From Methanobrevibacter millerae (GTDB lineage Archaea > Methanobacteriota > Methanobacteria > Methanobacteriales > Methanobacteriaceae): DNA of 64,000 nucleotides. Of this stretch, positions 41,801-58,827 are shown piece by piece. The translations under genes were made by a program, and so were the position numbers. The DNA is taken from assembly GCF_001477655.1 (NCBI RefSeq), contig NZ_CP011266.1, positions 434,001-498,000 on the forward strand. Reading direction: 5' to 3'. The notes below the pieces were generated by a model that saw only the letters and a program-made list of their open reading frames with translations, was not told the DNA's origin and ran no database searches. Every line of letters starts with the position of its first letter. Position 1 is the stretch's first letter.

Positions 41801-44800
41801 CTATGTTATTGTCATTGGTGATATTACAAAAATCGTTAGTGTTAAAAACGGTATTGGAGAATTTAATTTAGGCATTTTAAATGTCGGCGATTATAATATT
41901 TCTGTGAATTATTACGAAAATGAGAACTATAACAGCAATTCCAACACAACAACATTTAAAGTAACAGGAACAGGTACTAACTTCAACATAATTGCCAACA
42001 GCACACAAATCACTTACGGTGAAAACATCAAAATAACACAAAAACTCCCTGGTGACGCAACCGGCACCATAACATACATATTCGATAATGGAACAGTTAT
42101 TAAAATTACTAACGTTATTGAATCATTTGTTTTATCAAACCTTGATGCAGGATCTTATGTAATTTATGGATACTACTCCGGTGATTCCAATTACAAATCC
42201 GCCAGAGACAGTATAACAATAACCGTCAATAAAGCCATAAATAACGTAATTGTATCTGGTGAAAACACAGCATATCCACAAAACACAACAATAAAAGTCA
42301 CAACAGATATTGACGGAGAATATGCAGTAGTAATAGGTGATAAAAAAATCATTGTAAATGTAATAAATGGAATTGGAACGGGCACAATTGTTTTAGATGC
42401 GGGAAAATACACAGCCACTATCGAATACACAAACAAAAACTATGAAAACAACATCAAAAGCATTCCATTCAATGTAGCCAAAGCAGATGTTACTTTAAGC
42501 ATTGAAGTCTTAGACAAAGTATACGATTCTAATATAGGCGGTAACATATTTGCAAGCGTTGATGGCGAATATAATGTTATCATCAATGGCAAAACAATTC
42601 CAGTAACTGTTAAAAACGGTATCGGCGAATTTAATTTAGGCACATTAAAAGTCGGCGATTACAGCATTTCTGTAATTTATAACGGAAATAAAAACTACAA
42701 TAGCAATTCCAACACAACAACATTCAAAGTAACAGAAACCGGTACTAACTTCAACATAATTGCCAACAGCACAAACATCACTTACGGAGAAGACATAAAA
42801 ATAACACAAAAACTCCCAAGCGATGCAAAAGGCACAATAACATACACATATGCCAATGAAACCCTAATCAAAGTTATCAAAGTCGATGAATCATTCGTTT
42901 TATCCAATCTTGATGCAGGATCTCATGTAATTTATGGATACTACTCCGGCGATACCAATCACAAATCCTCCAGAGACAGTCTGACAATAACCGTCAATAA
43001 AGCCATAAATAACATAATTGTATCCGGTGAAAACACAGCATATCCACAAAACACAACAATAAAAGTCACAGCAGATATTGACGGAGAATACACCGTTACT
43101 ATCGCAGATAAAAAAATCATTGTAAAAGTAATAAATGGAATCGGAACCAAATCAATCGCATTAGATGCAGGAAAATACACAGCCAATATAGAATACACAA
43201 ACAAAAACTATGAAAACAACATCAAAAGCACAGCATTCAACGTAGCCAAAGCAAACATTACTTTAAGCATTGAAGTCTTAGACAAAGTATACGATTCTAA
43301 TATAGACGGTAACATATTTGCAAGCGTTGATGGCGAATATAATGTTATCATCAACGGCAATACAATTCCAGTAACTGTTAAAAACGGTATCGGCGAATTT
43401 AATTTAGGCACATTAAAAGCTGGAAATTATAGTATTTCTGTGATTTATTATGGAAATGATAACTATAACAGCAATTTCAATACAACAACATTCAAAGTAA
43501 CAGAAACAGGTACCAACTTCAACATAATTGCCAACAACACACAAATCACATACGGCGAAAACATCAAAATAACACAAAAACTTCCAAGTGACGCAACAGG
43601 TACCATAACCTACACATACGCCAATGGAACCATAATCAAAGTAATCAACGTCAATGAATCATTCGTTTTATCCAACCTTGATGCAGGATTTTATGTAATT
43701 TATGGATACTACTCCGGTGATTCCAATTACAAATCCGCCAGAGACAGCATAACCATTGTTGTCAATCCTAAAGGCAAAGAAAATGCTACAATTAGCATCG
43801 ATGCCCCTAAAGTCACTGAAGGTGAAAATGTTACAATTACAGTAACATTACCTGATGATGCAACAGGAACAATAACTGCTACAGTCAACGGCAAAACATA
43901 TTTCGCCTCTGTAGAAGAAGGTATAGCCATAATTACAATACCTGATTTGGATGCGGGCAACTACACAATACCTGTATACTACGCTGGTGATGACAAATAC
44001 ACATCACAAAGCAAAGATGCAAATGTTACTGTTGAAGAAGATAAATCAGACATTATCTCTGCTCAGGATATAACAAAATACTTCCACGGACCAGAAAGAT
44101 TTGTTGTAACCGTAACAGATTATAAAGGTAATCCATTAGCAAACAAAACAGTTAACATCACTATAAATGGTGTTAAATACACCAGAACAACAAATGCAAA
44201 AGGAACTACAAGTATTGCAATAAACTTACCAAGCGGCACCTACGATGCAACCGTAACAGTCGACAATAAAACAATTAAGTCTGTTATCATTGTTTTACCT
44301 ACCGTAAAAGGAAATGATCTTGTTAAAGTATTCAAAAATGCAACCCAATACTATACAACATTCCTTGACAGTCAAGGAAATTACCTTAAAGAAGGAAGCA
44401 TTGTCAGATTCAACATCAACGGCGTAATGTATGAGCGTAAAATAACCGGCGATAAAGGCCTTGCAAAATTAAATATTAACTTGCCTGCAGGCGAATATAT
44501 AATCACTGCAATAAACCTTGAAACCGGCGAAATGGCATCAAACAAGATTACAGTTATTCCAAGAATCATAGAAAACAATGATTTAATCAAATATTACAGA
44601 AATGCATCACAATACACAGTTAAATTGATTGGTGACGACGGCAACCCTGTAGGCGCAGGTGAAACAGTAACATTCAATATCAATGGAGTGTTCTACACAC
44701 GTACAACCAACGAATCAGGTATTGCAAAATTAAACATCAACCTAGATCCTGGACAATACATTATTACAGCAGAATACAGAGAATGCAAAGTTTCAAACAC

Positions 44801-45068
44801 TATTACAGTCCTGCCTGTATTAACTGCTCAAGACATTTCAATGAAATATCATGACGGAAGCAAATTCGTTGCAACACTTGTTGATGGCCAGGGAAAACCT
44901 TATCCAAACCAAAAAATACAATTTAACATAAATGGTGTCTTTTATTATCGTACAACTGATAATAATGGTCAAAGCGCATTAAACATCAACTTAGAGCCAG
45001 GAAAATACATCATAACATCAAGCTATGATGAATACAATACTTCAAACAAAATAACTATTTCAAGTTGA
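32805..45068 (+). CDS. Giant adhesin-like protein with beta-helix modules and Ig-like repeats
   Basis: 4087 residues in one uninterrupted frame. A signal peptide (KRIILISLILCVLSMACVSA) opens the protein. Up to about residue 1900 it has five right-handed beta-helix modules, three of them rich in GGAIY-type turns as in Pmp/POMP repeats. Modules 2-5 each start with NSFTAL or DSFTAL-type motifs (about residues 635, 965, 1440, 1682), and modules 1-4 each end in NWFG/NWWG (about 504, 839, 1309, 1556) plus an Ig-like strand domain. From about 2000 to 3650 it is a chain of Ig-like domains, including three 256-residue copies (2802-3569). Four related Ig-like units of about 85 residues close the protein. 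No membrane span or TGNP motif follows, so attachment to the wall is probably non-covalent through the last repeats. Likely role: adhesion to host, partner cells or particles. Confidence 0.88.
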   Translation: MKFKRIILISLILCVLSMACVSASDNQTSADNLQINDINANVINEEINEYTNDMNIMEGNTSDNGSVISDNLLSSSNSDDKLSAPKEGTRDELNNLIIAAKPGSTITLDKDYIFESDVKSVDITKNIVIDGKGHTIYPGYNPVFNFKHNTPSGKIEIKDITFVRGIGSAIHFNEESCPFIISNCRFINCSSQIGGAIAGAAKYTSNIINCSFKGCHGMGESKVVRKETFNSASSSAFSSGGAIYMSGSVNVKSCRFEDCSAGDGGAIEAYGNFQIIDCVFVKNYAGRIDSFNSLEHGGAIRIHGGSGALIKGCTFNENHAGHYGGAISSYGNNVRIEDNVFNSNYIDNSIRREGGAIFVGKDSKIGDTSIQITRCAFNNNGYNNNNHYCKYGGAIYFLDGIISGTVSYCNFTGNGASKEGGAIYASSDCKFLTFKGCAFTKNQVEKYGGAIYLDSKSSTIVDCAFVEQPNAIYCDNKGCSVKFSAFLNNGNYNVWSTKEINIANNWFGNTMDNRFYDFSKLKGKAVNLNNAENLYLAATSMDKNYHNGQESTVNLNFRYMREEPTSYNKLPPFNNPVISYAVSGVNAAIVSKNLYLANGKSSFKFVSDASKTSSSLTVDCYGAKLTLKFKINPNSFTALQALVDSCQNGVLNLTHNYTRDKSFDGDMTVTISKDLVINGNGFTLDSKNSGGVFFMSSRPNVDINNLNIVNSKSKWGSAIWGYINNMSINNCRFINCSAKFEGGAINLVGKVLTITNSTFINNTADENGGSLIVMGIKTVIKDCIFINSHSGMEGCFIYLHASSRLNLTDSILLTNSTSKYISKPEGESLRWNISANIENNWFGGTNDDILKNYDRINDFKVKSLLYLNVAPSLYDIPMGNTSKISLKFYSYDVNSRRSAALTSFRTMKFNVKLLKEGGRLSSNSIILTNNEGNVVYTSSSNGIMPVEFNYELFGHRIYLNQYGDNSFTALQYLINSSGNVINLTKDYTFSNISDYKLFDGVYINKDLTINGNGHVLSGSGQARIFNIDGHTVVLNNITFIKGKSDDGGAIFASPTSSLSIDSCRFENNTAKNGGAIYLKYFKSIIMESSFFKNNSATATGGAIYYYGDYGNKELFNITGTFINNWAGVDGGAIYEHDIANYHLKGNFTNNTAGRNGGAVCSDSVFVIGTISIDGIFDSNAAAFGGAVYSFNPFGNFTGIYQNNRASQDGGAIYMVRSSVRYGMPNTISGEFYSNTAKGQGSAVCAMNLSDKDVDLHDSIFIKNSGKSTLYSSGYTYLNVHDSIFVENNDDKVLDTSKDYAVDGRLKAYNNWFGHTVDNFDKKPSVGERVILNDWLYVDVDYGKTETDLKSKNNIIFTLKSYDAKKEKVSDYTGNFKLNLSLKSDSGNFSTNSFILDNAPVKVTYVPNDYGENTVVVWANLSKYSHKTYEIKYNVVEHPSDSFYALQYEIDHMKGNVLNLTNNYEFYPESDTPNGIKINKSISINGNGFAIDGKGSSNIFNISADNVVLENISLINGNDINGSAIYAEGNNIIIRNSILLNNTDVVIYATKSLTANYNWWGNTADTFNKKANVSSNVILDNALFATFKANSTVIGAGNNTTVVLNLTNLYNFNTKTNSTHDGLNLFSFDFNAEDGKINKTSDKLNKGIINVSFEVIGPLYAEIYAKYKNVVLNYTFEVVYDDDSFTALYALINKTAPNGILNLTQNYRFYYYDADYIEGIPIDKAITINGNGFNVNGTGESCVFFVSADNVCLTNINIYDSLDAIEWLGDNGLINNITVNNSNSSLNAFGSNLVIRNSNFTRASRYSLYLEDSNNVVDNCRFVDNSGPSIIGVCMNNLTIENSTFKNINSPISGIVEIIDCKDANISGCIFNNQNNQSIMILEGSTVYLNNNTLSKSDYIYNDGTILSKTYARMNKLNSSYMVDTEILLNSTIYDDNNNIILVDEFYFKIGEEPGKANPNIDTYEYKWTSKNGTWLVMPDINKTSFTNCDVDSAAVNVLKYNSSVIITSIRDIIYGEDANIEFEFKNSTAVLVTVLLGSDVIFNETTNKTNITLHDLKTGLYTIIISTLETERYQSSNATSDLRVNRAGSSLTLEAIIDTYYGKDVIINFTVENRTVVTATIYDIDTGKYVFNDVVEGNLLILNNLTVGSYSISLNNLIDPNYNPSGDYSTFNVLKVNSTINMDDETEYVYDNVTINYTVDNLTDILVTIFDLESGDIYNFTTTNSSINLDLDAGSYQITLINIETENVFPSEDSKTIIVLPANTSVKIDDIDNVHYGEDVEIIFDVINATNVTVIVKNEKNVIIYQNNTNESYIYLSDLNVGKYTVEIYNSATNNYKPSNDTKTFNVLKAGSFIEIEYDNLTTYGIPFRLDYDVENETLLNILIYDSKGNIVYDKNFDEISELPDDMSNLTEEAYLGYYFFIHRNLTAGKYTFELRNLDTSNVIGYMVNGSFEIIKTTSEVEVYVEDIVYGEDLEIHIGVINTTTVNIIIKDDKGSIVYNDNITSSPVIIKNWIPGNYTVIVTNLDTENVIGNSSSQDFQVFKINSTIKLNDISDIYYEDNVSISFEVENKTIVNIRIQNQDGEVVYDNNVTSDMIQVPNLNAGNYTVTVTNLETFNITKSSDSKSFRVLKRNINISVTVENNIYGEPTVVNVCSDIDGTFPVNIGTQQILVSVKNGHGKNTTKLGAGNYTAYVNYTNDNYNINMTNSSFIVSKADITLSIEVSDKEYAADVTGKVFASVDGEYSIVIGDIMKLVTVNKGVGEFNLGILKTGNYTISVIYNGTNNYKANTNKTTFKVSKSETNFNIKTDTNNITYGDSLKITQTLPSDATGTITYTYANGIIIKVIKVNESFVLSNLDAGSYVIYANYSGDSNYKSTSDNITVTVNKAINNIIVSGENTVYPENPTIQVIADIDGEYTVTIAGKKIIVNVINGIGTGSIALDAGKYTANIKYTNKNYENNIKTTAFNVAKGNITLSIEVLDKVYGADVEGNVFASVDGNYVIVIGDITKIVSVKNGIGEFNLGILNVGDYNISVNYYENENYNSNSNTTTFKVTGTGTNFNIIANSTQITYGENIKITQKLPGDATGTITYIFDNGTVIKITNVIESFVLSNLDAGSYVIYGYYSGDSNYKSARDSITITVNKAINNVIVSGENTAYPQNTTIKVTTDIDGEYAVVIGDKKIIVNVINGIGTGTIVLDAGKYTATIEYTNKNYENNIKSIPFNVAKADVTLSIEVLDKVYDSNIGGNIFASVDGEYNVIINGKTIPVTVKNGIGEFNLGTLKVGDYSISVIYNGNKNYNSNSNTTTFKVTETGTNFNIIANSTNITYGEDIKITQKLPSDAKGTITYTYANETLIKVIKVDESFVLSNLDAGSHVIYGYYSGDTNHKSSRDSLTITVNKAINNIIVSGENTAYPQNTTIKVTADIDGEYTVTIADKKIIVKVINGIGTKSIALDAGKYTANIEYTNKNYENNIKSTAFNVAKANITLSIEVLDKVYDSNIDGNIFASVDGEYNVIINGNTIPVTVKNGIGEFNLGTLKAGNYSISVIYYGNDNYNSNFNTTTFKVTETGTNFNIIANNTQITYGENIKITQKLPSDATGTITYTYANGTIIKVINVNESFVLSNLDAGFYVIYGYYSGDSNYKSARDSITIVVNPKGKENATISIDAPKVTEGENVTITVTLPDDATGTITATVNGKTYFASVEEGIAIITIPDLDAGNYTIPVYYAGDDKYTSQSKDANVTVEEDKSDIISAQDITKYFHGPERFVVTVTDYKGNPLANKTVNITINGVKYTRTTNAKGTTSIAINLPSGTYDATVTVDNKTIKSVIIVLPTVKGNDLVKVFKNATQYYTTFLDSQGNYLKEGSIVRFNINGVMYERKITGDKGLAKLNINLPAGEYIITAINLETGEMASNKITVIPRIIENNDLIKYYRNASQYTVKLIGDDGNPVGAGETVTFNINGVFYTRTTNESGIAKLNINLDPGQYIITAEYRECKVSNTITVLPVLTAQDISMKYHDGSKFVATLVDGQGKPYPNQKIQFNINGVFYYRTTDNNGQSALNINLEPGKYIITSSYDEYNTSNKITISS
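41208..43757 (+). repeat. 768-bp tandem repeat in the giant adhesin
   Basis: Three full units (41208-41975, 41976-42743, 42744-43511) and part of a fourth (43512 to about 43757) lie head to tail with an exact 768-bp period. Each encodes 256 residues starting TNFNI, holding three Ig-like domains. A diverged partial unit precedes them (about 40690-41207). Units 2 and 3 are nearly identical over long stretches, which favours copy-number change by recombination. Confidence 0.88.
44041..45065 (+). repeat. Four C-terminal Ig-like repeats of the giant adhesin
   Basis: Units begin near 44070, 44312, 44577 and 44828 and share the pattern F/Y-x-N-G-x-x-Y, then FNINGVxYxRTT, a Gly-x-Ala-x-LNINL and PGxYIIT. 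DNA identity is modest, so they are older than the 768-bp units. Their terminal place suggests wall attachment. Confidence 0.75.
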
Positions 45069-45100
45069 GATTAAATACTGTCTCAACTATTTTTTTTATT
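45064..45100 (+). terminator. Hairpin terminator of the giant adhesin
   Basis: GTTGAGA (45064-45070) pairs with TCTCAAC (45081-45087), 7 bp with a 10-base loop, followed by TATTTTTTTT. It overlaps the stop codon 45066-45068. Confidence 0.7.
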
Positions 45101-45301
45101 TTGATTGTTAAAAGAAATTATTGACTTTTAATAACCCTTCATTTTTTAACCTAATATTTCGCACTTTTTAAAAAAGGTTATATTAAAAAATAAAGCCTTT
45201 AACATTGTTTATAGGGACTATTTTTTTAAGATTAATTTTTCTCAATTTTGAAAGTTATTTAAAATATAAAAAACATATATTTTACTAATCAATCTTTTAA
45301 A

Positions 45302-48001
45302 ATGATTATTATGGTAGAAATTTTTGATGAACTTGGTTATAAAAAACAAACATGTAAAACTTGCGGACAGGAGTTTTACTCCCAGGTGGATAGAGACACC
45401 TGTGGTGATGCTCCATGTGATGAGTATGAGTTTATTGCAAACCCTGCAACCGATAAGCCATACAATTTATATGAAATCCAAAAGGTGTTTAGAGAATTTT
45501 TAGAAAGTGAAGGACATACTCATGTCCATAGATATCCTGTTTTAGCTAAAAGATGGAGAGATGATGTCTTTTTAGTTGGAGCATCTATTTTCTGTTTCCA
45601 GCCATGGATTACATCAGGTCTTGTTAAACCACCGGCCAATCCTATTGAAATGGCTCAACCATCAATCAGGCTTAATGATGTAGATAATGTTGGAAGAACC
45701 GGTCGTCACATGACCTGTTTTACAATGGGAACACATACAGTTATTAACAAGGAAGATGATTTTATCTATTGGGAAGATGAAACAATCAGACTTTGTCATG
45801 AGTTCTTTGCCCACATTGGAATTAACACTGAAGAAATTACTTTCATCAAATCCTGGTGGAGCGGTGGAGGTAATGAAGGGCCATGTTATGAGGTATGCTG
45901 CAGAGGAGTGGAACTTGCAACATTGGTTTTCATCCAATATGAAACCTTGGAAAATGGTGATAAAAAAGAAATCCCAATTAAAGTTGTGGATACAGGTTAT
46001 GGATTGGAACGTATTGCATGGATTTCACAAGGAACTCCAACAGCTTATGATGCTTGTTTTGCACCTGTTGTTGACAAACTAAAAGAATTGACTGGCGTTG
46101 AAATTAATGAGGATATTCAAGGAAGAAATGCGCAAATTGCGGGAATGATGGATATTGAGGATATCGGTGACTTGAAAGAATTAAGACAGCAAGTTGCAGA
46201 CAGTTTAAATCTTTCTTTGGATGAGTACTTAAAAGCCGCTGAACCGATGGAAGCGATTTATATTATTGCAGACCATACTAGATGTTTGGCATTCATGTTG
46301 GCTGATGGTATTATCCCATCCAATGTTAAGGAAGGATATTTGGCAAGATTGGTTTTAAGAAGAACTATTCGTTTCATGAAAGAGTTAAACATGAAAGAAT
46401 CCTTGGCTGATGTAATGGAAATACAATTGGATTTCTTATCTAAATTCTATCCTGAAATCCGTGATTCTGAAGAACATATTATGAATATCATTACTTTGGA
46501 AGAAGAGCGTTATGCTACAACCGTCAAAAAAGGTAAAAGCATTGTCAGAAGATCCATCAAAAGACTTAAAAAAGAAGGAAAAACTGAAATGCCTCTTGAC
46601 ATGCTGATTGATTTATATGATGCTCATGGGATCCCTCCAGAAACTGTTGTTGAAATGGCGGGGGATGGATTTACAGTAAATGTTCCGGACAACTTCTTCA
46701 CTCAGGTTGCAGGAGCACATGAAAAAGACACTTCCAGCAAAAAATCCACATTTAAACTGGACTTCCCTGAAACTGATTTATTGTTCTATAAAGATTTCTA
46801 CCAACAAGAATTTGAAGCTGAAGTTTTAGGTTTAGTGGAAAAAGACGGCAAGCAATGTTTGATTTTTGATAAAACAACATTCTATCCTGAAGGAGGAGGT
46901 CAACCTTCCGATATTGGTGAAGTTTCCATTAACGGAAATGTCTTTAAAATACCTCATGCCGATAAAGTTGACAATGTTGTCCTGCATTATGTGGATGGAG
47001 ACATCACAGATGATGTGGTTGGACAAAAGGTAACTGGTAAAATTGACTGGGCAAGAAGAATAACTCTTGCACGTCACCACACTGGAACACACTTGGTAAT
47101 TGCGGCTGCAAGAAAAGTGTTAGGTCAGCATATCTGGCAGGCAGGATCACAAAACGGTCTTACAAGAGCACGTATTGACTTATCCCATTACAAACGTATC
47201 ACACAAGAAGAATTGAATGAAATTGAAAAATTGGCTAATGAATATGTGATGGAAAACATCGACTTGGACATCCAATTCCATACAAGAGATGAGGCACAGG
47301 AATTATATGGATTTGTACTTTATCAGGGAGGTATCGTTCCAGGTAAAATGATTCGTGTAGTTAAAATACCTGGCGTTGATGTTCAGGCCTGTGCGGGTAC
47401 ACATGTATTAAGAACTGGTGTTGTCGGTCCGATTAAAATCAATAAGACTGAAAGAGTTCAGGATGGTGTTGAAAGGATTGATTTCTCAGCAGGTCTTGCA
47501 GCAATCGATTCAATGCAGCATGACGGTGAAATCCTGCGTGAAAGTTCAGCAATATTTAAGGTTGAAAATGATCAATTGCCAAAAACCTGTGACAGATTCT
47601 TCTCTGAATGGAAATCACAGAAAAATGAGATAGACAAATTAAAATCCGAGATTGCTTCTTTAAAAATGAACTCTCTTGCTGATGACTATGATGAAATCAA
47701 TGGTCTTAAAGTTGTTCATCAGTTAATGGACAGTGATATTAAGGAACTTCAAAAGATAGCAACTGATTTTACTGACAACGGTAAAGCTGATGTTGTTATC
47801 ATGGGTAACAATGATGGTAAAATTGTCGGTGCAGCATCCCAAAATGCTATTGACAACGGAGTTAAGATTAATGATATCATTAAAACTGCAGCCGGAGTTT
47901 TAGGTGGTGGCGGTGGAGGCCGTCTTACATTAGCACAAGGTGCTGGTAAAAACACTGAAAAGATGGATGAAGCTATTAAAACTGCTGTTGAATTAATATA
48001 A
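45302..48001 (+). CDS. alaS: Alanyl-tRNA synthetase
   Basis: 899 residues, archaeal type. The N-terminal zinc motif CKTCGQEF is archaeal. The class II core has HTHVHRYPVLAKRWRDDVFL and GYGLERIAW; the editing domain has the HHTGTH and CAGTH metal sites (ARHHTGTHLVIA and VQACAGTHVLR); the C-Ala part ends in GGGGGGRLTLAQGAG. It charges tRNA-Ala and clears mis-charged Ser/Gly. No ribosome site is seen before ATG 45302 or ATG 45311; AAACATATATTT at about 45270-45281 would give a leaderless start near the first. Confidence 0.95.
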   Translation: MIIMVEIFDELGYKKQTCKTCGQEFYSQVDRDTCGDAPCDEYEFIANPATDKPYNLYEIQKVFREFLESEGHTHVHRYPVLAKRWRDDVFLVGASIFCFQPWITSGLVKPPANPIEMAQPSIRLNDVDNVGRTGRHMTCFTMGTHTVINKEDDFIYWEDETIRLCHEFFAHIGINTEEITFIKSWWSGGGNEGPCYEVCCRGVELATLVFIQYETLENGDKKEIPIKVVDTGYGLERIAWISQGTPTAYDACFAPVVDKLKELTGVEINEDIQGRNAQIAGMMDIEDIGDLKELRQQVADSLNLSLDEYLKAAEPMEAIYIIADHTRCLAFMLADGIIPSNVKEGYLARLVLRRTIRFMKELNMKESLADVMEIQLDFLSKFYPEIRDSEEHIMNIITLEEERYATTVKKGKSIVRRSIKRLKKEGKTEMPLDMLIDLYDAHGIPPETVVEMAGDGFTVNVPDNFFTQVAGAHEKDTSSKKSTFKLDFPETDLLFYKDFYQQEFEAEVLGLVEKDGKQCLIFDKTTFYPEGGGQPSDIGEVSINGNVFKIPHADKVDNVVLHYVDGDITDDVVGQKVTGKIDWARRITLARHHTGTHLVIAAARKVLGQHIWQAGSQNGLTRARIDLSHYKRITQEELNEIEKLANEYVMENIDLDIQFHTRDEAQELYGFVLYQGGIVPGKMIRVVKIPGVDVQACAGTHVLRTGVVGPIKINKTERVQDGVERIDFSAGLAAIDSMQHDGEILRESSAIFKVENDQLPKTCDRFFSEWKSQKNEIDKLKSEIASLKMNSLADDYDEINGLKVVHQLMDSDIKELQKIATDFTDNGKADVVIMGNNDGKIVGAASQNAIDNGVKINDIIKTAAGVLGGGGGGRLTLAQGAGKNTEKMDEAIKTAVELI

Positions 48002-48045: not shown

Positions 48046-48798
48046 TCATAAACCATAACTGCTTTTATCATAATTTAATTTGTACATGAACTTATAATAT
48101 TCGTCATGGTTTAGTCTGCCGTCGCCATTGGAATCAGAATCGGCAAACATCTTGTTTTGAATATTTTTTGGTGTATGCGCTATATTCATGTCACTTAAAT
48201 ATACATATCCGTCTCCATTTTTGTCAGTATCTTCAAATGAATGTGAATAGCTGAATGATTGGTAATCTGGTTCTGTCCTTGTTGAAGTTACTTGGCTGCT
48301 GATTTCAGTCACTTTGCTTTCAACGGTCATCTTGTTTGTTGCAGAGGATTTAGCATAATTTTCATCTCCTGCAAATGAACATGTAACTTCGTAATCTCCT
48401 GGTTCAACATTTGGTGTTATTGAGGATAAACCTTGAGAATTCGTTGCCTGATTGAAAGTATATGTGTTCTGATTATTTTTAAAGGTTATTTCAATAGTTT
48501 TCCCGGCTACTCCCTGTGTGTTGCCCATTAGCTGAACTGTAAACTCTCCTGAACTACTTATAGGGGATTGTGTTATTAGATTAATTGATGTATGTTCTCC
48601 AAAGAGACCAAATCCATGTGTTATTATTGCTATGGATATAACAAGGATTATTACTACAATTAATAGTCCGTAAATTAGTTTTGTATTGTCTTTTTGTGAA
48701 GAGTTATTCTTTTTGGGGATTTTTTCTCCACAGTTAGGACAAAATGATTCATTTTCATCATTCAATTTTTCACCGCATTTACTACAATATTCACTCAT
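48046..48798 (-). CDS. Zinc-ribbon, membrane-span, Ig-like, EF-hand protein
   Basis: 250 residues. Residues 1-27 are a zinc ribbon (YCSKCGEKL and FCPNCGEKI). Residues about 41-62 are one membrane span. Residues about 75-160 resemble an Ig-like repeat (GKTIEITFKNN, SQGLSSITPNVEPGDYEVTC), similar in pattern to the giant adhesin's units. Residues about 190-235 hold two EF-hand loops, DTDKNGDGYVYLSDM and DSDSNGDGRLNHDEY, with the normal Asp/Asn/Gly calcium ligands. The likely layout is zinc ribbon inside, Ig and calcium domain outside. No known function; a calcium-responsive surface protein is a fair guess. Confidence 0.72.
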   Translation of the reverse strand: MSEYCSKCGEKLNDENESFCPNCGEKIPKKNNSSQKDNTKLIYGLLIVVIILVISIAIITHGFGLFGEHTSINLITQSPISSSGEFTVQLMGNTQGVAGKTIEITFKNNQNTYTFNQATNSQGLSSITPNVEPGDYEVTCSFAGDENYAKSSATNKMTVESKVTEISSQVTSTRTEPDYQSFSYSHSFEDTDKNGDGYVYLSDMNIAHTPKNIQNKMFADSDSNGDGRLNHDEYYKFMYKLNYDKSSYGL

Positions 48799-48949
48799 AA
48801 TTGTATATTTGGTAAGATAATATTTATAAATATTAAAATTTAAAAGTTATATTTGCTGTTATATTTTAGTAATATCTAGACATTATGTTTGGATATTGAA
48901 GGGATTACTATTATCTTCAGCTATCGTATTAATTGAAAGAGATGTTTAA

Positions 48950-50098
48950 ATGAAGTATGATTTAATCGTAGCAAGATATGGTGAAGTGGGCTTAAAAAGC
49001 TCAAAAGTACGTTCTCGTTTTGAAAGAAAATTAGTTAAAAATATCAAGTCTGCAATTGATTGTGATGTTGACAGAAATCAGGGCAGAATTTACATATTTC
49101 CCAAAAGCTTTGATGATGCAGTAAATAATTTAAACAGGGTTTTTGGTATTGTATCTTACTCTCCGGCTATTTCTACATACAGTAACTTTGAGGATATTGA
49201 TAAGACTTTGGGAGAATATGTTGAGAATTTGGCTAGCGAAAACATGATTGATGAGCAGACCAAATTTGCAATTAAATGCAGACGTGTTGGAGATCATGAT
49301 TTTACCTCTCAGGAGATGGCTGCATTTTGTGGAGGGGTTGTGAGAAAAAGAGTTCTGGCACCTGTTGATTTAACAAATCCTGAATTAACAATATTTGTTG
49401 AAGTTCGTGGTGATGACACTTTTATTTATCATGAAAAAATTCCAGGACCTGGAGGATTACCTTTAGGAACTCAGGGAAAAGTGGTTTGTCTTGTATCCAG
49501 TGGAATTGATTCTCCTGTTGCAACTTATCTGATGATGAAAAGGGGTTGTGAAGTGATTGCACTTTATTGTGATAATGACCCGTTCACATCCAAAAAAGCT
49601 TTAGAAAATTATAATAAATTGGTTGATCAGCTTCAAAACTATGCTGCAGGTGTTCCTATTAAAAAACGTGTTGTCAAATATGGTGAATACTTGAAAAAAG
49701 CCAAAGAAGATGCTCCGGAAAAGATGACTTGTGTTTTATGTAAATCAGGTATGTATAAATTGGCTGAAAAATTAGCTAATGAAATGGGGGCACTGGCTAT
49801 TGTAGATGGAAGCAGTGTAGGCCAAGTCGCATCTCAAACTCTGAATAATATTCTAGCAACTAGATATGGTGTTGATATGCCAATTTTATCACCGTTAATT
49901 GGTTTGGATAAGGCAGAAATTACTAAAATTGCTGAAGAAATTGGAACATTTGAAATATCCAAAATTGATGATGGTGGATGCAGTGCGGTTCCAAGATATC
50001 CTGAAACCAAAGGTGACTTGGACAGATTTAAAGATGCCTGTGAGGCCATGAATCAGGATGATGTTATTGAAGAGGTTTTTAAAACAATACAGCATTAA
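48950..50098 (+). CDS. thiI: tRNA 4-thiouridine synthase ThiI, archaeal type
   Basis: 382 residues. A ferredoxin-like plus THUMP domain (residues 1 to about 165) binds tRNA; the PP-loop SSGIDSPVATYLM near residue 183 adenylates uridine 8. The rhodanese domain of bacterial ThiI is absent. Instead MTCVLCKSG (CxxC, about residue 260) and a third cysteine in DDGGCSAVP (about 343) are placed like the three Fe-S ligands of methanogen ThiI. A role in thiamine thiazole synthesis is less likely. The gene starts well after a divergent gap of about 150 bases. Confidence 0.87.
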   Translation: MKYDLIVARYGEVGLKSSKVRSRFERKLVKNIKSAIDCDVDRNQGRIYIFPKSFDDAVNNLNRVFGIVSYSPAISTYSNFEDIDKTLGEYVENLASENMIDEQTKFAIKCRRVGDHDFTSQEMAAFCGGVVRKRVLAPVDLTNPELTIFVEVRGDDTFIYHEKIPGPGGLPLGTQGKVVCLVSSGIDSPVATYLMMKRGCEVIALYCDNDPFTSKKALENYNKLVDQLQNYAAGVPIKKRVVKYGEYLKKAKEDAPEKMTCVLCKSGMYKLAEKLANEMGALAIVDGSSVGQVASQTLNNILATRYGVDMPILSPLIGLDKAEITKIAEEIGTFEISKIDDGGCSAVPRYPETKGDLDRFKDACEAMNQDDVIEEVFKTIQH

Positions 50099-50376
50099 TA
50101 GTAATGTGTTATTGGCAGCATCATTAGACCTGTCAGGAAGATTATGATAAATGTAAGGACATACATTTCCTTATTTTCTATTTTTTTGTTTTTCAAATTA
50201 ATTATCAAAGGAACTAAAAATATTGGTAGGAATTATCTTGTTTGAACGCCAATAATTATATTTGAACCAACAGGTGTCCATTGCAAGTAATAAAAAACAT
50301 ACATTTTTAGCATTATTTTAGGATAAATAGATATTTTTAATAATCATCATAATTAAACAAATTATTTGGTGTTAAA

Positions 50377-50775
50377 ATGAGTACTTTTAATTCAATCGAA
50401 GAAGCAAGAGAATTTTTTAAAGGTGACAAGTTTGCAACAAACCTTGGTGTTAGCCTGGAAAAATTGGATGAAGATAGTTGTGAATGTAGTTTGGAATTAA
50501 ATGACGGCCATAAAAATGCTGTTGGTGGTGTAATGGGAGGAGTCATGTTCACTTTAGCGGATTTTGCATTTGCAGTTTTGTCCAATAATTTGCATTCTCC
50601 TACTGTTGCTCAACAAGTCAGTGTTAACTATTTAAGTGCTCCTAAAGGAAATAAACTAATTGCCCGTGCGGTATGTAAAAAGAATGGGAGAAGTTCATCT
50701 ATTATAAATGTTGATGTTAGTGATGATACTGGCAGAGATATCGTACAATTCGTAGGTACGGGTTTTAAATTATAA
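50377..50775 (+). CDS. PaaI-type hotdog-fold thioesterase
   Basis: 132 residues, a complete hotdog domain: NAVGGVMGGVMFTLADFAFA is the central helix with the catalytic Asp region, and VAQQVSVNYLSAP the adjacent strand. The PaaI branch hydrolyses acyl-CoA thioesters; the substrate here is unknown. It stands alone, in its own transcription unit. The 278-base gap before it (50099-50376) was examined on both strands and holds no supported gene. Confidence 0.78.
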   Translation: MSTFNSIEEAREFFKGDKFATNLGVSLEKLDEDSCECSLELNDGHKNAVGGVMGGVMFTLADFAFAVLSNNLHSPTVAQQVSVNYLSAPKGNKLIARAVCKKNGRSSSIINVDVSDDTGRDIVQFVGTGFKL

Positions 50776-50920
50776 CATTCTTTTTTCTTTATTTTCAAAA
50801 TTAATTTTTTGATTACTACTAATCATAATTATTATATACTAATCCAATCAAAAATATTATCATATGCTTAATTAATTTTTTAAGTTCATATAAGACTTAA
50901 TATTTTTTGAGGTATTAAAA

Positions 50921-52015
50921 ATGAAAACTACAGTTAGTGTAATTAAAGCTGATATCGGAAGTGTTTCTGGTCACTGTGTTGCACATCCAGAATTAATGGA
51001 TATCTGTGATGAAGTTTTAAACGAAGCTTTAGAAACTGGTATTTTAAAAGACTATTATGTTTCCCGTTGTGGAGATGACATTGATTTAATCATGACCCAC
51101 GACAAAGGGGAAGAAAACGAAGAAGTTCACAAAACTGCTTATGATGCATTCATGAAAGCTACTGCAAGAGCACGTGAATTGAAATTATACGGTGCAGGTC
51201 AAGACTTATTGTCCGATACTTTCTCAGGTAATATCAAAGGTATGGGTCCTGGTGTTGCAGAAATGGAATTTGAAGAAAGACCATCTGACCCTGTATTAGT
51301 ATTCTGTTGTGACAAAACCGAACCTGGTGCATTCAACTTACCAATCTTTAGAATGTTTGCAGACCCATTCAACACTGCAGGTCTTGTAATTGACCCAAGT
51401 TTACACGACGGATTCAAATTTGAAGTATTCGATGTAATCGAACACAAAAAAGTTATCTTAGATTGTCCTGAAGAAATGTATGATTTACTCGCATTAATCG
51501 GTTCAACCGGTAGATATGTTATTAAAAGAGTATGGAAGAAAAACGGCGAAATCGCAGCTGCAATAAGTACTGAAAGGTTAAACTTAATGGCTGGTGAATA
51601 CGTTGGTAAAGACGACCCAGTAGCAGTTGTAAGAGCACAATCCGGATTCCCTGCAAACGGTGAATGTGTAGATCCATTTGCATTCCCTCACATGGTAAGT
51701 GGTTGGATGAGAGGATCCCACAATGGTCCAATGATGCCTGTTTCAGAAGCAGAAGCAAACCCAATCAGATTTGACGGACCACCTAGAGTCGTCGGTTTAG
51801 GTTTCCAAGTAGCTAATGGTGAATTAGTAGGTCCTGTAGACTTATTCGATGACCCTGCATTTGATCCTACTCGTGAACAAGCTGCTAAAATCGCAACTTA
51901 CATCAGAAGACATGGTCCATTCGAACCTCACAGATTACCTGCTGAAGAAATGGAATATACTTCCCTTCCTGGTGTAATGAGCAAACTCGAAAAAAGATTC
52001 GAGGACATGGATTAA
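50921..52015 (+). CDS. fbp: Bifunctional fructose-1,6-bisphosphate aldolase/phosphatase
   Basis: 364 residues, the length of archaeal type V FBPase. MKTTVSVIKADIGSVSGHCVAHP opens the protein with the metal-binding Asp and His; GDDIDLIMTHDKG adds further metal ligands; GEYVGKDDPVAVV near residues 224-236 holds the Tyr and Schiff-base Lys that make the enzyme also an aldolase. It performs the last two steps of gluconeogenesis to fructose-6-P. Its codons use C-ending and optimal forms more than its neighbours, fitting high expression. Confidence 0.95.
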   Translation: MKTTVSVIKADIGSVSGHCVAHPELMDICDEVLNEALETGILKDYYVSRCGDDIDLIMTHDKGEENEEVHKTAYDAFMKATARARELKLYGAGQDLLSDTFSGNIKGMGPGVAEMEFEERPSDPVLVFCCDKTEPGAFNLPIFRMFADPFNTAGLVIDPSLHDGFKFEVFDVIEHKKVILDCPEEMYDLLALIGSTGRYVIKRVWKKNGEIAAAISTERLNLMAGEYVGKDDPVAVVRAQSGFPANGECVDPFAFPHMVSGWMRGSHNGPMMPVSEAEANPIRFDGPPRVVGLGFQVANGELVGPVDLFDDPAFDPTREQAAKIATYIRRHGPFEPHRLPAEEMEYTSLPGVMSKLEKRFEDMD

Positions 52016-52021
52016 ATTTAA

Positions 52022-52050
52022 AGAGATTTTCTAATCTCTACTTTTTTTAC
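52022..52050 (+). terminator. Hairpin terminator of fbp
   Basis: AGAGATT (52022-52028) and AATCTCT (52033-52039) form a 7-bp stem with a 4-base loop, followed by ACTTTTTTTAC. Confidence 0.72.
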
Positions 52051-52086
52051 TTTTTTTAACTAATTTCTAAAATGATGGTTGATTTT

Positions 52087-52326
52087 TCATTTGTGTGCAG
52101 TTATAATTGTATAGCTTGATGCATTAACTGTAATAACACAATTGTCAATATGAACATAGTAATTTTTACCTTTTCGTTCGACAACGGATTCATCCTTGAG
52201 AATTTTCTTTTTGCAGTATTCAACAACATCTCCATTAATATCTAAATTTCTGGAAATTCTTCCAACGCCCATTTCAGTTGTATGGATTTTATTGATATTC
52301 TGTATTAGGGTTTCCTTTTCATGCAT
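52087..52326 (-). CDS. DUF3781-family small protein
   Basis: 79 residues from ATG 52326, preceded by GAGGTG. The pattern LIQNINKIHTTEMGVGRISRNL and the end VITVNASSYTIITAHK match DUF3781, a small family of unknown function seen mainly in Firmicutes and some archaea. It may have come by transfer from gut bacteria. The ABC permease gene is divergent, 74 bases away. Confidence 0.72.
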   Translation of the reverse strand: MHEKETLIQNINKIHTTEMGVGRISRNLDINGDVVEYCKKKILKDESVVERKGKNYYVHIDNCVITVNASSYTIITAHK

Positions 52327-52400
52327 CTTGACACCTCTTTTTTGCATTTTAATATTCATTAAAAGAATTTATTTATATAGTTATTATATAATCTATTACT

Positions 52401-53510
52401 ATGTCATTTTTAAAATTTATTATCAAAAATCCATTCAGGAGAAAGAATAGTGCTATACTGGCTATTGTTGGTATATGTATTGGTATAGTAGTTATTGTCG
52501 CTCTTGGTGGTATTACAAATGGTTTGGTATCTACTTTTGAAGACACTGTCCATGCGGGAGGTGCGGATTTTACTATTTCAGGTAAAGAAACGGGAAATTC
52601 AGCGTATGGTACTAATACCATTGACGCTAACTGGACTGATAAAATAGCTAATGTAAGTGGCGTTAGTGAAGCCTATCCGATTTATGTTATTTTAACGTCT
52701 GTGGGGGATGATTATATGAACACATTAATTGGAATAGATCCGAACGGTACAACTATGGCTGATATTTCAATTAGTGATGGTCGAATGTTTAAGGATAATT
52801 CCTCAGAAGTGATTTTGGGAAAGATTTATGCCGATGATAAGAATTTGTCTGTTGGTGACACATTAAAAATTGACGGTGAAGACTTTAATGTTTCCGGTAT
52901 TTATGAAACGGGTGACTCCAATATGGCGGGGGCGGTTTTCACTTCAATTGAAAAGGTGGCAGATATTAATGATGATTCAGACAGTATATCAAATATCTAT
53001 GTGAAGGTAGATAAGGGAGCGGATGCTCAGGAAGTTGCAAATAGGATTGATTCTATGTATGGAGATAATATTACCACTGTCTCCTCTGTCATGGAAATGG
53101 AACAGATGGCAGACATGTTAAACATGCTTAAAGCATCTTCTTGGGGTATTTCTCTTTTAGCTATTGTTGTTGGTGCATTGGGTATTATCAATACAATGCT
53201 GATGTCTGTTTTTGAAAGAACTCGTGAAATTGGTGTGTTAAAGGCGGTGGGATGGTCTAATGCTAAAATTTTAACAATGATTGTTGGCGAATCATTGGTT
53301 ATTACCGTATTGTCTGCAATCATAGGGTCTGTTCTTGGTGTTGTTTTGTGTACTGTTTTAGGTCCTATGATGAATATTAATGCAGTTTTCACGCCAGATA
53401 TTTTCATACAGGCATTTGGAATAGCGATTATTGTTGGAATTATTGGGGGATTGTATCCTGCTGTCAAGGCAATTAAATTACCTCCAACTGAGGCATTGAG
53501 GTATGAATAG
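52401..53510 (+). CDS. MacB/FtsX-type ABC transporter permease
   Basis: 369 residues. One N-terminal membrane span (about residues 18-40), a large extracytoplasmic MacB_PCD domain (about 45-240), then three spans (about 255-275, 295-330, 335-355) with the FtsX motif SVFERTREIGVLKAVG. It ends KAIKLPPTEALRYE as usual. Such permeases act mechanically or export lipoproteins, peptides or antibiotics; the cargo is unknown. The ATPase gene starts 8 bases downstream. Confidence 0.85.
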   Translation: MSFLKFIIKNPFRRKNSAILAIVGICIGIVVIVALGGITNGLVSTFEDTVHAGGADFTISGKETGNSAYGTNTIDANWTDKIANVSGVSEAYPIYVILTSVGDDYMNTLIGIDPNGTTMADISISDGRMFKDNSSEVILGKIYADDKNLSVGDTLKIDGEDFNVSGIYETGDSNMAGAVFTSIEKVADINDDSDSISNIYVKVDKGADAQEVANRIDSMYGDNITTVSSVMEMEQMADMLNMLKASSWGISLLAIVVGALGIINTMLMSVFERTREIGVLKAVGWSNAKILTMIVGESLVITVLSAIIGSVLGVVLCTVLGPMMNINAVFTPDIFIQAFGIAIIVGIIGGLYPAVKAIKLPPTEALRYE

Positions 53511-53518
53511 GTGATTTT

Positions 53519-54223
53519 ATGGATAATGTTGTTGAAATTAATAATTTGGTTAAAACATATGAAAATGGCCATATTAAGGCTTTAAATGGTATTGATTTAA
53601 CAATTGGTGAAGGAGAATTTGTATCAATAATAGGGCCTTCAGGTTCAGGTAAGTCAACATTATTGAACATGCTTGGTGCACTTGACCTGCCGGATTCCGG
53701 TTCAATTAATGTTGCGGGATACGATTTGATTTCAAATAAAAAATTAAATGAATTCCGGGCCAAAAAAATTGGTTTTATTTTTCAGTTACATAATCTGATT
53801 CCAAATTTATCCGTCGTTGAAAACATAGAAATTCCAATGTTCACCTCCAAATTGTCCAATAGTGAAATGAGGGTCAAAGCATTGGATTTGCTTGATATTG
53901 TGGGTCTTCGAGATAAGGCATCACAAAAGCCATCAAAATTATCTGGTGGTGAACGGCAAAGGGTTGCTATTGCACGTGCACTTGCAAATGATCCTTCAAT
54001 TATATTGGCTGATGAACCAACAGGATCACTTGATTCAAAGACAAGTACTAAAATCCTTAAGCAATTAATTGATTTGCACAGATCCCAAAATGTAACATTG
54101 ATAATTGTCACACATGATATGGATGTGGCTAAACTTGCAGACAGAACTATTGAAGTTTTGGATGGTAAACTTGTTAATGCTGGTGAAAATTCTCTTTTGG
54201 ATGATAAGATAAATGTGGATTAA
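53519..54223 (+). CDS. MacB/LolD-type ABC transporter ATPase
   Basis: 234 residues. Walker A GPSGSGKST near residue 37, Q-loop FIFQLHNLIP, signature LSGGERQRVAIARALA, Walker B IILADEPTGSLD and the switch His in IVTHDMDVAKLA are all intact. It powers the permease encoded just upstream; the two are clearly one operon. A secreted Ser/Asn-rich protein follows after 73 bases. Confidence 0.92.
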   Translation: MDNVVEINNLVKTYENGHIKALNGIDLTIGEGEFVSIIGPSGSGKSTLLNMLGALDLPDSGSINVAGYDLISNKKLNEFRAKKIGFIFQLHNLIPNLSVVENIEIPMFTSKLSNSEMRVKALDLLDIVGLRDKASQKPSKLSGGERQRVAIARALANDPSIILADEPTGSLDSKTSTKILKQLIDLHRSQNVTLIIVTHDMDVAKLADRTIEVLDGKLVNAGENSLLDDKINVD

Positions 54224-55817: not shown

Positions 55818-56399
55818 ATGAAAATATTAAAAACTGATAATGCAGCACCTGATGAACATGTAATTAATGAAGCCATTGATGTGTTGGCTAATGGTGGAGT
55901 TATCATATATCCTACAGACACGGTCTATGGATTAGGTGCTAATATATTCAACAATAAGGCTGTTCGCAATGTTTTTGGTATAAAGCAAAGAAATTTATTA
56001 AAACCATTATCTATTTTGGTTTCAGATACCGATGCGATAGATTTGGTTGCAAAAGTTTCATTATATCAAAAAAATACTTTAGAAAAATACCTGCCCGGAC
56101 CATATACTTTTATATTAAATAAAAATTCTATTATTCCAAGAGTTGTAACTAGTGGTTTGCCGCATGTTGGAGTAAGAGTTCCTAAAAATGAGATTGCATG
56201 TAAATTGGCAAGCTTGTTTCCAATAACCACCACAAGCGCTAATTTATCTGATGAGGAAGTATTGTCTACTCCTAAAGAAATTATTGATCAATTGGGTCGT
56301 GATGTTGATTTGGTAATTGATGTCGGACCTTTAGATTCTAAAAATGCATCAACTATTGTGGATTTAACAACACCACAACCAAAATTTATAAGAAGATAA
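55818..56399 (+). CDS. Threonylcarbamoyl-AMP synthase (Sua5/YrdC)
   Basis: 193 residues, the short YrdC-domain form. GGVIIYPTDTVYGLGANIF near the N-terminus, KQRNLLKPLSILV and TTTSANLSDEEVLST are the characteristic blocks. It makes threonylcarbamoyl-AMP for the t6A base 37 of ANN-decoding tRNAs, including the tRNA-Ile class found in this window. It faces the surface-protein gene in convergent orientation and shares a hairpin with it. Confidence 0.88.
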   Translation: MKILKTDNAAPDEHVINEAIDVLANGGVIIYPTDTVYGLGANIFNNKAVRNVFGIKQRNLLKPLSILVSDTDAIDLVAKVSLYQKNTLEKYLPGPYTFILNKNSIIPRVVTSGLPHVGVRVPKNEIACKLASLFPITTTSANLSDEEVLSTPKEIIDQLGRDVDLVIDVGPLDSKNASTIVDLTTPQPKFIRR

Positions 56400-56420
56400 A
56401 AAGAGAATTAATCTCTTTTT
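56398..56420. terminator. Shared bidirectional terminator overlapping two stop codons
   Basis: AAAAAGAGA (56398-56406) pairs with TCTCTTTTT (56412-56420), 9 bp with a 5-base loop. The stem covers the final bases of the Sua5 gene and the last codons of the convergent surface-protein gene. Confidence 0.7.
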
Positions 56421-58009
56421 AATGGACAAAATCCAATTATTCCAAGTAAAATTAATAGTATGAGTAATGGATTTCCAGTTGATTTTTGAATATCAATATC
56501 TTCTTGCTGATTTTTTTCATTTATGTCTGTTAAATTAGTTTCTGTTGAATTATTAACAGGTATTGTATAAATTGTTTCATAACTGTTTTCTGTTGTGTTG
56601 TTTTCTGGTATTGTTTCGTTTTTTATTGTTTCATTTTCTGGTTTTTCTTGTGTTGTGTTGTTGTTTTCTGTTGTGTGGTTTTCTGGTATTGTTTCGTTTT
56701 TTATTGTTTCATTTTCTGGTTTTTCTTGTGTTGTGTTGTTGTTTTCTGTTGTGTTGTTTTCTGGTATTGTTTCGTTTTTTATTGTTTCATTTTCTGGTTT
56801 TTCTTGTGTTGTGTTGTTGTTTTCTGTTGTGTTGTTTTCTGTTGTGTTGTTTTCTGTTGTGTTGTTTTCTGTTGTGTTGTTTTCTGGTATTGTTTCGTTT
56901 TTTATTGTTTCATTTTCTGGTTTTTCTTGTGTTGTGTTGTTGTTTTCTGTTGTGTTGTTTTCTGGTATTGTTTCGTTCTTTATTGTTTCATTTTCTGGTT
57001 TTTCTTGTGTTGTGTTGTTGTTTTCTGTTGTGTTGTTTTCTGGTATTGTTTCGTTTTTTATTGTTTCATTTTCTGGTTTTTCTGGTATTGTTTCGTTTTC
57101 TGTTGTGTTGTTTTCTGGTATTGTTTCGTTTTCTGTTGTGTTGTTTTCTGGTATTGTTTCGTTTTCTGTTGTGTTGTTTTCTGGTTTTTCTGGTATTGTT
57201 TCGTTTTCTGTTGTGTTATTGTTTTCTGTTGTGTTGTTTTCTGGTTTTTCTGGTATTGTTTCGTTTTCTGTTGTGTTGTTTTCTGGTTTTTCTGGTATTG
57301 TTTCGTTTTTTATAGTTTCATTATTAGTATTATCATTTTTATCTCCGAGAATATTATTCAGGATATTTTTATAGGTTAATTTATATCCAAAAAAGTTTTG
57401 AGCTCCTTTTTTATCAGAATCAAGAACTTCAAAATCAAATATTACTTTCGTTGTATTGTTGATTATTTTTTCCTCACCATGATCTGATATAACCCTACCT
57501 GATTTTGCGATATTTTTTATTTCATTTATTATTTCTTTATCTCCGTATTTGTAATCATCTGAAAATGACCAGATTATTTTTTGAGTCTCTCTTGGATTTT
57601 TAATTATGTAATCATAAAATTCTACAAATAAAATTTTTAAATAGTTCCCGATTTCATTTTTGTTGTTATTGTTTATTGCTGCAGATGTATCTTTTACTGT
57701 AAATCCATCTCCAATTTTTGCTCCTGCCTGTCCTTTGTTAATACAATATCCATTATATCCATCATTAAATGATATATTCAAATAACCTTCATTATTAATT
57801 CCTTTGTCTGTTGATTCTACATTTTCACCAATTCTGTCACTTTCATTTTTTGGTGAATTTTCAATATTTCCTAATTTATTTTCTTCTTCAGCATATGGAT
57901 CAGTTTCCATCATCATTAATTCATTTGTATTATTGTACGCTGATGCTAATGTTATGCATGACATAATTGCTATTATTGAAATAAATAAAGTTATAACCTT
58001 TCTTTTCAT
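56408..58009 (-). CDS. Repeat-stalk surface protein with candidate Cys-Gln thioester domain
   Basis: 533 residues. A signal peptide (KRKVITLFISIIAIMSCITLASA) is followed by a domain at about residues 75-215. Cys89 in NGYCINKG is the only cysteine of the mature extracellular part, and Gln143 in ETQKIIWSF fits the Gln-x-x-Ile-Trp pattern of class-type thioester adhesins of Gram-positive bacteria. Residues about 231-490 are a stalk of NNTTEN, NETIPE and KPEN units dense in N-x-T glycosylation sequons. The end is KSTGNP, about 17 hydrophobic residues and PLKRD, the same sorting plan as the protein ending at 255. Probably a covalent-binding adhesin held out from the wall; the thioester is predicted, not shown. 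Confidence 0.72.
   Translation of the reverse strand: MKRKVITLFISIIAIMSCITLASAYNNTNELMMMETDPYAEEENKLGNIENSPKNESDRIGENVESTDKGINNEGYLNISFNDGYNGYCINKGQAGAKIGDGFTVKDTSAAINNNNKNEIGNYLKILFVEFYDYIIKNPRETQKIIWSFSDDYKYGDKEIINEIKNIAKSGRVISDHGEEKIINNTTKVIFDFEVLDSDKKGAQNFFGYKLTYKNILNNILGDKNDNTNNETIKNETIPEKPENNTTENETIPEKPENNTTENNNTTENETIPEKPENNTTENETIPENNTTENETIPENNTTENETIPEKPENETIKNETIPENNTTENNNTTQEKPENETIKNETIPENNTTENNNTTQEKPENETIKNETIPENNTTENNTTENNTTENNTTENNNTTQEKPENETIKNETIPENNTTENNNTTQEKPENETIKNETIPENHTTENNNTTQEKPENETIKNETIPENNTTENSYETIYTIPVNNSTETNLTDINEKNQQEDIDIQKSTGNPLLILLILLGIIGFCPLKRD
56575..57320 (-). repeat. Short tandem repeats encoding the NNTTEN/NETIPE stalk
   Basis: About 750 bases of near-perfect tandem units. 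The longest recurring unit, about 78 bases, encodes KPENETIKNETIPENNTTE plus NNNTTQE; shorter units encode NETIPE and NNTTE alone. Unit number and order vary along the array, which marks it as prone to slippage. All units keep the frame. Confidence 0.88.
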
Positions 58010-58122: not shown

Positions 58123-58827
58123 ATGAAAGTATTAGCTAACTTTGAGGATAATCATAAGATTCCAACAAATTCAAGTATCGATAATTTATTAAACGGGGGA
58201 TTTGAAAAAGGTACTGTAACCCAAATTTTTGGTCCTCCAAGTTCTGGTAAAAGTAATATTGCTTTGTGTTTGGCAGTTAATGTTGCCAAATCAGGTAAAA
58301 AAGCTATTTATATGGATACTGAAGGTGGAATTTCAATTGATAGAATTAAACAAATTGCAGGCAGTGATTTTTCACAAGTTGCTAATAATATAATGGTTTT
58401 TGAACCAACTACTTTTCAGGAACAAGGTGAAAACATCGGAGCTATTGAATTGTGGCTTAGAAAGAACCATGCAGATACTGATATATTTATTTTGGATTCT
58501 GCCGTAGCACTATATCGTGTGGATGATATGAAATCATCCCGATTAAATAAGGAATTGGGTAAACAAATGGGAATTCTTTCAAAAATAGCCCGGTCTTTTG
58601 ACATTGCCGTTATCGTTACCAATCAAATATATAATGCATTTGATGATGAAGGAAATAATGATATACGTGCTGTTGGAGGTATGGTACTTCAATATTGGAG
58701 CAAAGTCATAATTCAATTGGAGCGTGGTGAAGAAACAAATCAGAGAATCGCCACATTAAAACGCCATCGAAGTATTGGTGAAGGTCGGCAAGCCGTTTTC
58801 CGAATTAATTCTCGTGGGATTAATTAG
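58123..58827 (+). CDS. radB: DNA repair and recombination protein RadB
   Basis: 234 residues, the RadA-paralogue without the N-terminal helix-hairpin domain. Walker A is GPPSSGKSN (residues 37-45) and Walker B is IFILDSAVALYR. The DNA loop region is short. RadB is a euryarchaeal recombination mediator that supports RadA. The start is preceded by only a weak ribosome site. Confidence 0.9.
   Translation: MKVLANFEDNHKIPTNSSIDNLLNGGFEKGTVTQIFGPPSSGKSNIALCLAVNVAKSGKKAIYMDTEGGISIDRIKQIAGSDFSQVANNIMVFEPTTFQEQGENIGAIELWLRKNHADTDIFILDSAVALYRVDDMKSSRLNKELGKQMGILSKIARSFDIAVIVTNQIYNAFDDEGNNDIRAVGGMVLQYWSKVIIQLERGEETNQRIATLKRHRSIGEGRQAVFRINSRGIN

Follow-up and report, generated by a model that had tools for sequence, protein, structure and literature searches.

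The protein of 533 residues encoded at 56408..58009 on the reverse strand of the window (the whole stretch of Methanobrevibacter millerae DNA analyzed here, 64,000 nucleotides) is quite probably a short, class I-like thioester-domain adhesin of Methanobrevibacter, predicted to bind amines covalently through a thioester between Cys89 and Gln204. Thioester domains (TEDs) are the domains by which Gram-positive bacteria attach covalently to surfaces, in the manner of a “chemical harpoon.”

Read from its sequence, the protein is secreted and anchored in the membrane or wall, and all of its parts lie on the reverse strand. A predicted signal peptide (residues 1–24, MKRKVITLFISIIAIMSCITLASA; 57938..58009) is followed by the TED-type head, which spans residues ~70–222 (~150 amino acids; 57344..57802) as delimited by alignment, profiles, and a structure model, then by a repeat stalk (residues 226–500; 56510..57334), and finally by a C-terminal anchor composed of KSTGNP, a transmembrane segment, and KRD (56411..56485). 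The stalk consists of repeats of N, T, E, P, I, and K arranged in NETIPENNTTE units, with tandem repeats of ~78 bp in the DNA, and it contains 61 N-x-S/T sequons for N-glycosylation. The cysteines of the protein are found at position 18, in the signal peptide, at 89, in NGYCINKG, and at 528, within or behind the C-terminal membrane segment, while the glutamines of the head are 94, 143, and 204. An earlier, sequence-only reading of this DNA, which proposed a Cys-Gln thioester adhesin, was right in taking Cys89 for the sole cysteine of the mature outer part, and the translation also bears out its placement of Gln143 within TQKIIWSF, 54 residues after Cys89. It had located the feature at 57470–57830; the domain has the extent given above, and the codon of Gln204 (57398–57400) falls outside that span. 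Of the glycosylation-rich stalk and sorting tail that it described, the sequons and a hydrophobic C-terminal tail are present, but the tail is without a full LPxTG: where an LPxTG, a transmembrane segment, and basic residues were looked for, the protein reads KSTGNP, transmembrane segment, and KRD. The host genome, a single contig of 2.54 Mb, encodes one sortase-family gene as well as the oligosaccharyltransferase STT3, and sortase anchoring through this tail is possible.

As judged from profile and profile–profile matches, shared motifs, and orthologues above the Pfam cut-off, the head is homologous to the thioester domains of bacteria (TED, PF08341). Five residues (Cys89, Lys125, Phe149, Phe193, and Gln204) are invariant among 33 aligned archaeal homologues of the head (A1), whose profile matched the Cpa TED 4c0z in the PDB (E = 1.5e-4), the Cys, TQ..IW, and QN motifs falling in register, and weakly 5dcq; PF08341 was the family matched by most members of this alignment (19/33, best 1.2e-5). 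When profiles were aligned with hhalign, a Clostridia TED profile was matched at P = 5.2e-7, with Cys on Cys and TQxxIW on TQxxIW, and a second one at P = 4.9e-5, with Gln204 (QNFF) on the Gln of QNLL. The latter value became 3.9e-6 with 91 sequences in place of 33, repeat runs agreed, and ten column-shuffled control profiles all gave P ≥ 0.22. Head homologues were detected by profile search (E ≤ 0.001) in 74 of 139 Methanobacteriaceae genomes, and the PF08341 cut-off is exceeded in 16 of the 152 genomes of the phylum, among which are syntenic orthologues of the 56408–58009 gene (L018, 24.7 bits; L025, 23.3 bits; L015, 22.1 bits). The 533-residue protein itself scores 15.1 bits, under the gathering cut-off of 22, which is a detection threshold and no defining biological feature. 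Searched alone, the protein gave spurious weak matches only against the curated Pfam and NCBIfam families, and no match in a single-sequence search of the PDB. A PF08341 search of its own genome returned none, yet hmmscan later placed a TED above the cut-off in another of its proteins, so the first search misses divergent TEDs. Together with the three ordered motifs, these profile matches and orthologues give good support to the proposal that an archaeon has a thioester adhesin of the TED type.

All three TED motifs (eLife 06638) are found in the head, in TED order and on the reverse strand. The first, [YFL]C-Phi-zeta, is represented by YCIN (Y88-C89-I90-N91; 57737..57748, Cys89 at 57743–57745), as seen in alignment and sequence; the second, the helical TQxxPhiW, by TQKIIWSFS (T142-Q143...W147; 57560..57586, Gln143 at 57581–57583), as seen in alignment and model; and the third, Phi-Q-zeta-Phi-Phi, by AQNFF (A203-Q204-N205-F206-F207; 57389..57403), which carries Gln204, the predicted partner of Cys89, in the context QNFFGYK. 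The AF2 model of the head (pLDDT 90.7, pTM 0.86) runs from strands through helices to strands. Cys89 ends an early strand, the second motif lies in the third helix, three strands come after the helices, and Gln204 stands just before the last of them, which leaves motifs 1 and 3 at strands. This order of elements fits the description of TEDs (eLife 06638; Protein Sci 2018). The sequence-only reading had looked to structure prediction for a TED fold; the confident model and its order of elements are in line with one, whereas a Foldseek search of the model against the PDB retrieved no TED, only noise at TM <0.2. The control, a model of a Clostridia Cpa-like TED, was too poor (pLDDT 43) to serve as a check on the Foldseek search.

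The predicted thioester most likely joins Cys89 to Gln204, and not to Gln143, as had first been proposed. The QxxIW that was then taken for the bonding motif is the helical TQxxPhiW, which adjoins the thioester in known TEDs (Protein Sci 2018) and whose Gln is dispensable in those studied (eLife 06638; Protein Sci 2018); they form the bond through the Gln of Phi-Q-zeta-Phi-Phi (eLife 06638), and Gln204 is the residue that aligns with this third motif. Residue counts were made on 127 distinct copies with letters at Cys89 and at the partner position. Cys89 is kept in 100 of the 127 copies readable at Cys89 and Gln143, and almost half of these Cys-bearing copies (47/100) have Ser, Thr, His, Arg, or another residue in place of Gln143. 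For Cys89 and Gln204, the 127 copies divide into 91 with both, 27 with neither, 8 with Cys alone, and 1 with Gln204 alone, and the tree places 14 changes at Gln143 against 4 at Gln204. The syntenic set, which comprises the 22 of the L002–L030 loci that lie beside RadB and/or Sua5, has Cys in 22/22, Gln204 in 21/21 readable, and Gln143 in 17/22, with Ser in the other five. Cys89 and Gln204 are regarded as partners because Gln204 is invariant while Gln143 is variable, and the bond between them is predicted because the third-motif Gln forms it in TEDs. The Fisher test of their co-occurrence (p = 2e-19) is not used alone as evidence, and a phylogenetic independent-pairs test, underpowered with losses that are few and clustered, was not significant. 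A Cys89–Gln143 thioester could draw on the presence of Gln143 in the protein, inside a motif next to the thioester of known TEDs, but with Gln143 repeatedly lost from relatives that keep Cys89, syntenic orthologues included, such a bond is very improbable, and a supporting role for Gln143 is more likely.

Two further explanations concern the head as a whole. It might have a TED fold devoid of a reactive thioester, binding non-covalently or carrying Cys89 as a free thiol or in a disulfide dimer. Relatives that have neither Cys nor Gln204 keep the domain, which suggests that the fold is useful without the bond, and the Foldseek result would also agree with this explanation, as would eight Cys-bearing paralogues in which Gln204 is replaced and an extra Cys has appeared two residues on (SDC[LVI]AYK), where a disulfide might take the place of the thioester. 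Against this stand the invariance of Cys89 and Gln204 across a deeply diverged Cys-bearing set and the consideration that a buried free cysteine or a disulfide needs no glutamine, and this explanation is considered unlikely. That an unrelated surface domain matches the TED pattern by chance would agree with the negative Foldseek search and with the lack of a Pfam or NCBIfam match at the curated cut-offs for the 533-residue protein; it is hard to reconcile with profile and profile–profile matches, three motifs in order, clean shuffled controls, and orthologues above the Pfam cut-off, and is given hardly any credence.

The TED gene lies between two forward-strand genes, at 55818..56399 and 58123..58827, which we take from reading their sequences to be Sua5-like and radB-like, respectively. 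They are conserved neighbors, and the order Sua5-TED-radB recurs in many Methanobrevibacter genomes. Because the TED heads of the syntenic loci are 45–63% identical and the flanking neighbors 64–93%, the gene is taken to encode, from a fixed chromosomal place, a surface protein that evolves rapidly. Several species have a paralogue without Gln204, and often without Cys, near the TED gene, several of these paralogues standing between that gene and radB. Such paralogues are seen at L005, L008, L011, L014, L015, L022, and L023, and some of them have gained a Cys two residues past the position of Gln204. At L029, an orthologue-like frame contains six in-frame stops and represents a pseudogene or a poor assembly. 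Longer TEDs above the PF08341 cut-off, at L126, L127, L128, and L135 in the same phylum, apparently have a separate origin.

Among known systems, the protein resembles class I TEDs (SfbI-TED, Cpa-TED2 of Streptococcus pyogenes, and CpTIE-TED) in its N-terminal head after a signal peptide, in the helices between strands, and in the single Cys of the head. It differs from them in its sub-cut-off PF08341 score and in the Cys–Gln spacing, which is 115 residues, as compared to 129–153 in class I and 129 to 204 across the cited TEDs. Class II TEDs have a beta-sandwich insertion (slipknot) of ~75 residues that is missing from the archaeal head, in which the 61 residues from Gln143 to Gln204 leave no room for it. 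The TIE proteins BaTIE and TIE-pLS20 likewise carry a TED head on a stalk with a C-terminal anchor, but their stalks contain isopeptide or ester domains, of which the 533-residue protein has none, its stalk being a low-complexity, sequon-rich repeat; TIE proteins can also be likened to the thioester-motif heads of this genome that are combined with DUF11 repeats and TGNP or LPATG tails. The adhesin-like proteins of M. ruminantium and M. smithii are similarly secreted surface proteins with transmembrane or sortase anchors, and no thioester head is named in the genome and adhesin-like-protein literature searched. A 2015 survey found TEDs exclusively in Gram-positive bacteria (eLife 06638), and text searches of the literature returned no paper on methanogen TEDs, the TED papers describing Gram-positive bacteria only. 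Archaeal matches to PF08341 may nonetheless already be on record in databases.

Among the other proteins of this genome are five larger ones with thioester motifs, each with stalk repeats of DUF11, a “CLIPPER” isopeptide domain (2025 survey); two of the five end in LPATGNP, and one bears a PF08341 TED above the cut-off. A protein of 1117 residues (L237:1367–4717; 43866–47216 of this genome) has a signal, a TED above the Pfam cut-off (residues 132–235), at least six DUF11 repeats, and an LPATGNP tail, and thus looks like a TIE protein in an archaeon. Adjoining it is a protein of 1672 residues (L065:569–5584; 48568–53583 of this genome) in which the three thioester motifs are combined with eleven stretches of DUF11 and an LPATGNP tail. 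In a Clostridiales MAG, an LPxTG-type protein with a PQTG sortase tail and Ig-like repeats (L089:221–1711) has a TED close to the archaeal ones. Its gene adjoins pilin-like and sortase-like genes, the TED nests inside the Methanobrevibacter group on the tree (21 rows, support 97), and the DNA has 54% GC vs. 33% in the window. It is likely that a transfer has taken place between methanogens and bacteria of the rumen.

For an adhesin with a Cys89–Gln204 thioester, the predicted course of events begins with export, after which the head would fold. Cys89, where a beta strand ends, and Gln204, where the last strand begins, would then condense with loss of NH3 into a buried internal thioester, with Gln143 and Trp147 of the central helix packed on the backbone of the Cys in the manner of known TEDs. 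The extended stalk of NETIPENNTTE units, presumably glycosylated, would keep the head off the pseudomurein wall, and the tail of TGNP, transmembrane segment, and KRD would act as the anchor. An amine of a partner surface, most likely a lysine, would attack the thioester, by which an amide link to Gln204 would be formed and Cys89 freed. Candidate surfaces are those of neighboring hydrogen-producing bacteria, protozoa, and host material.

There is a somewhat better than even chance that functional covalent (thioester) adhesins form a large family in Methanobrevibacter, made up of a minimal TED at a fixed locus and of larger proteins with thioester motifs and isopeptide stalks, and that in the gut and rumen these adhesins bond the methanogens covalently to partners of microbial or host origin. 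If this is true, such a family would explain attachment to hydrogen-producing partners or hosts and would supply a mechanism that can be tested for some of the many unexplained adhesins of Methanobrevibacter, and Cys89 would offer one defined residue for work on methane mitigation.
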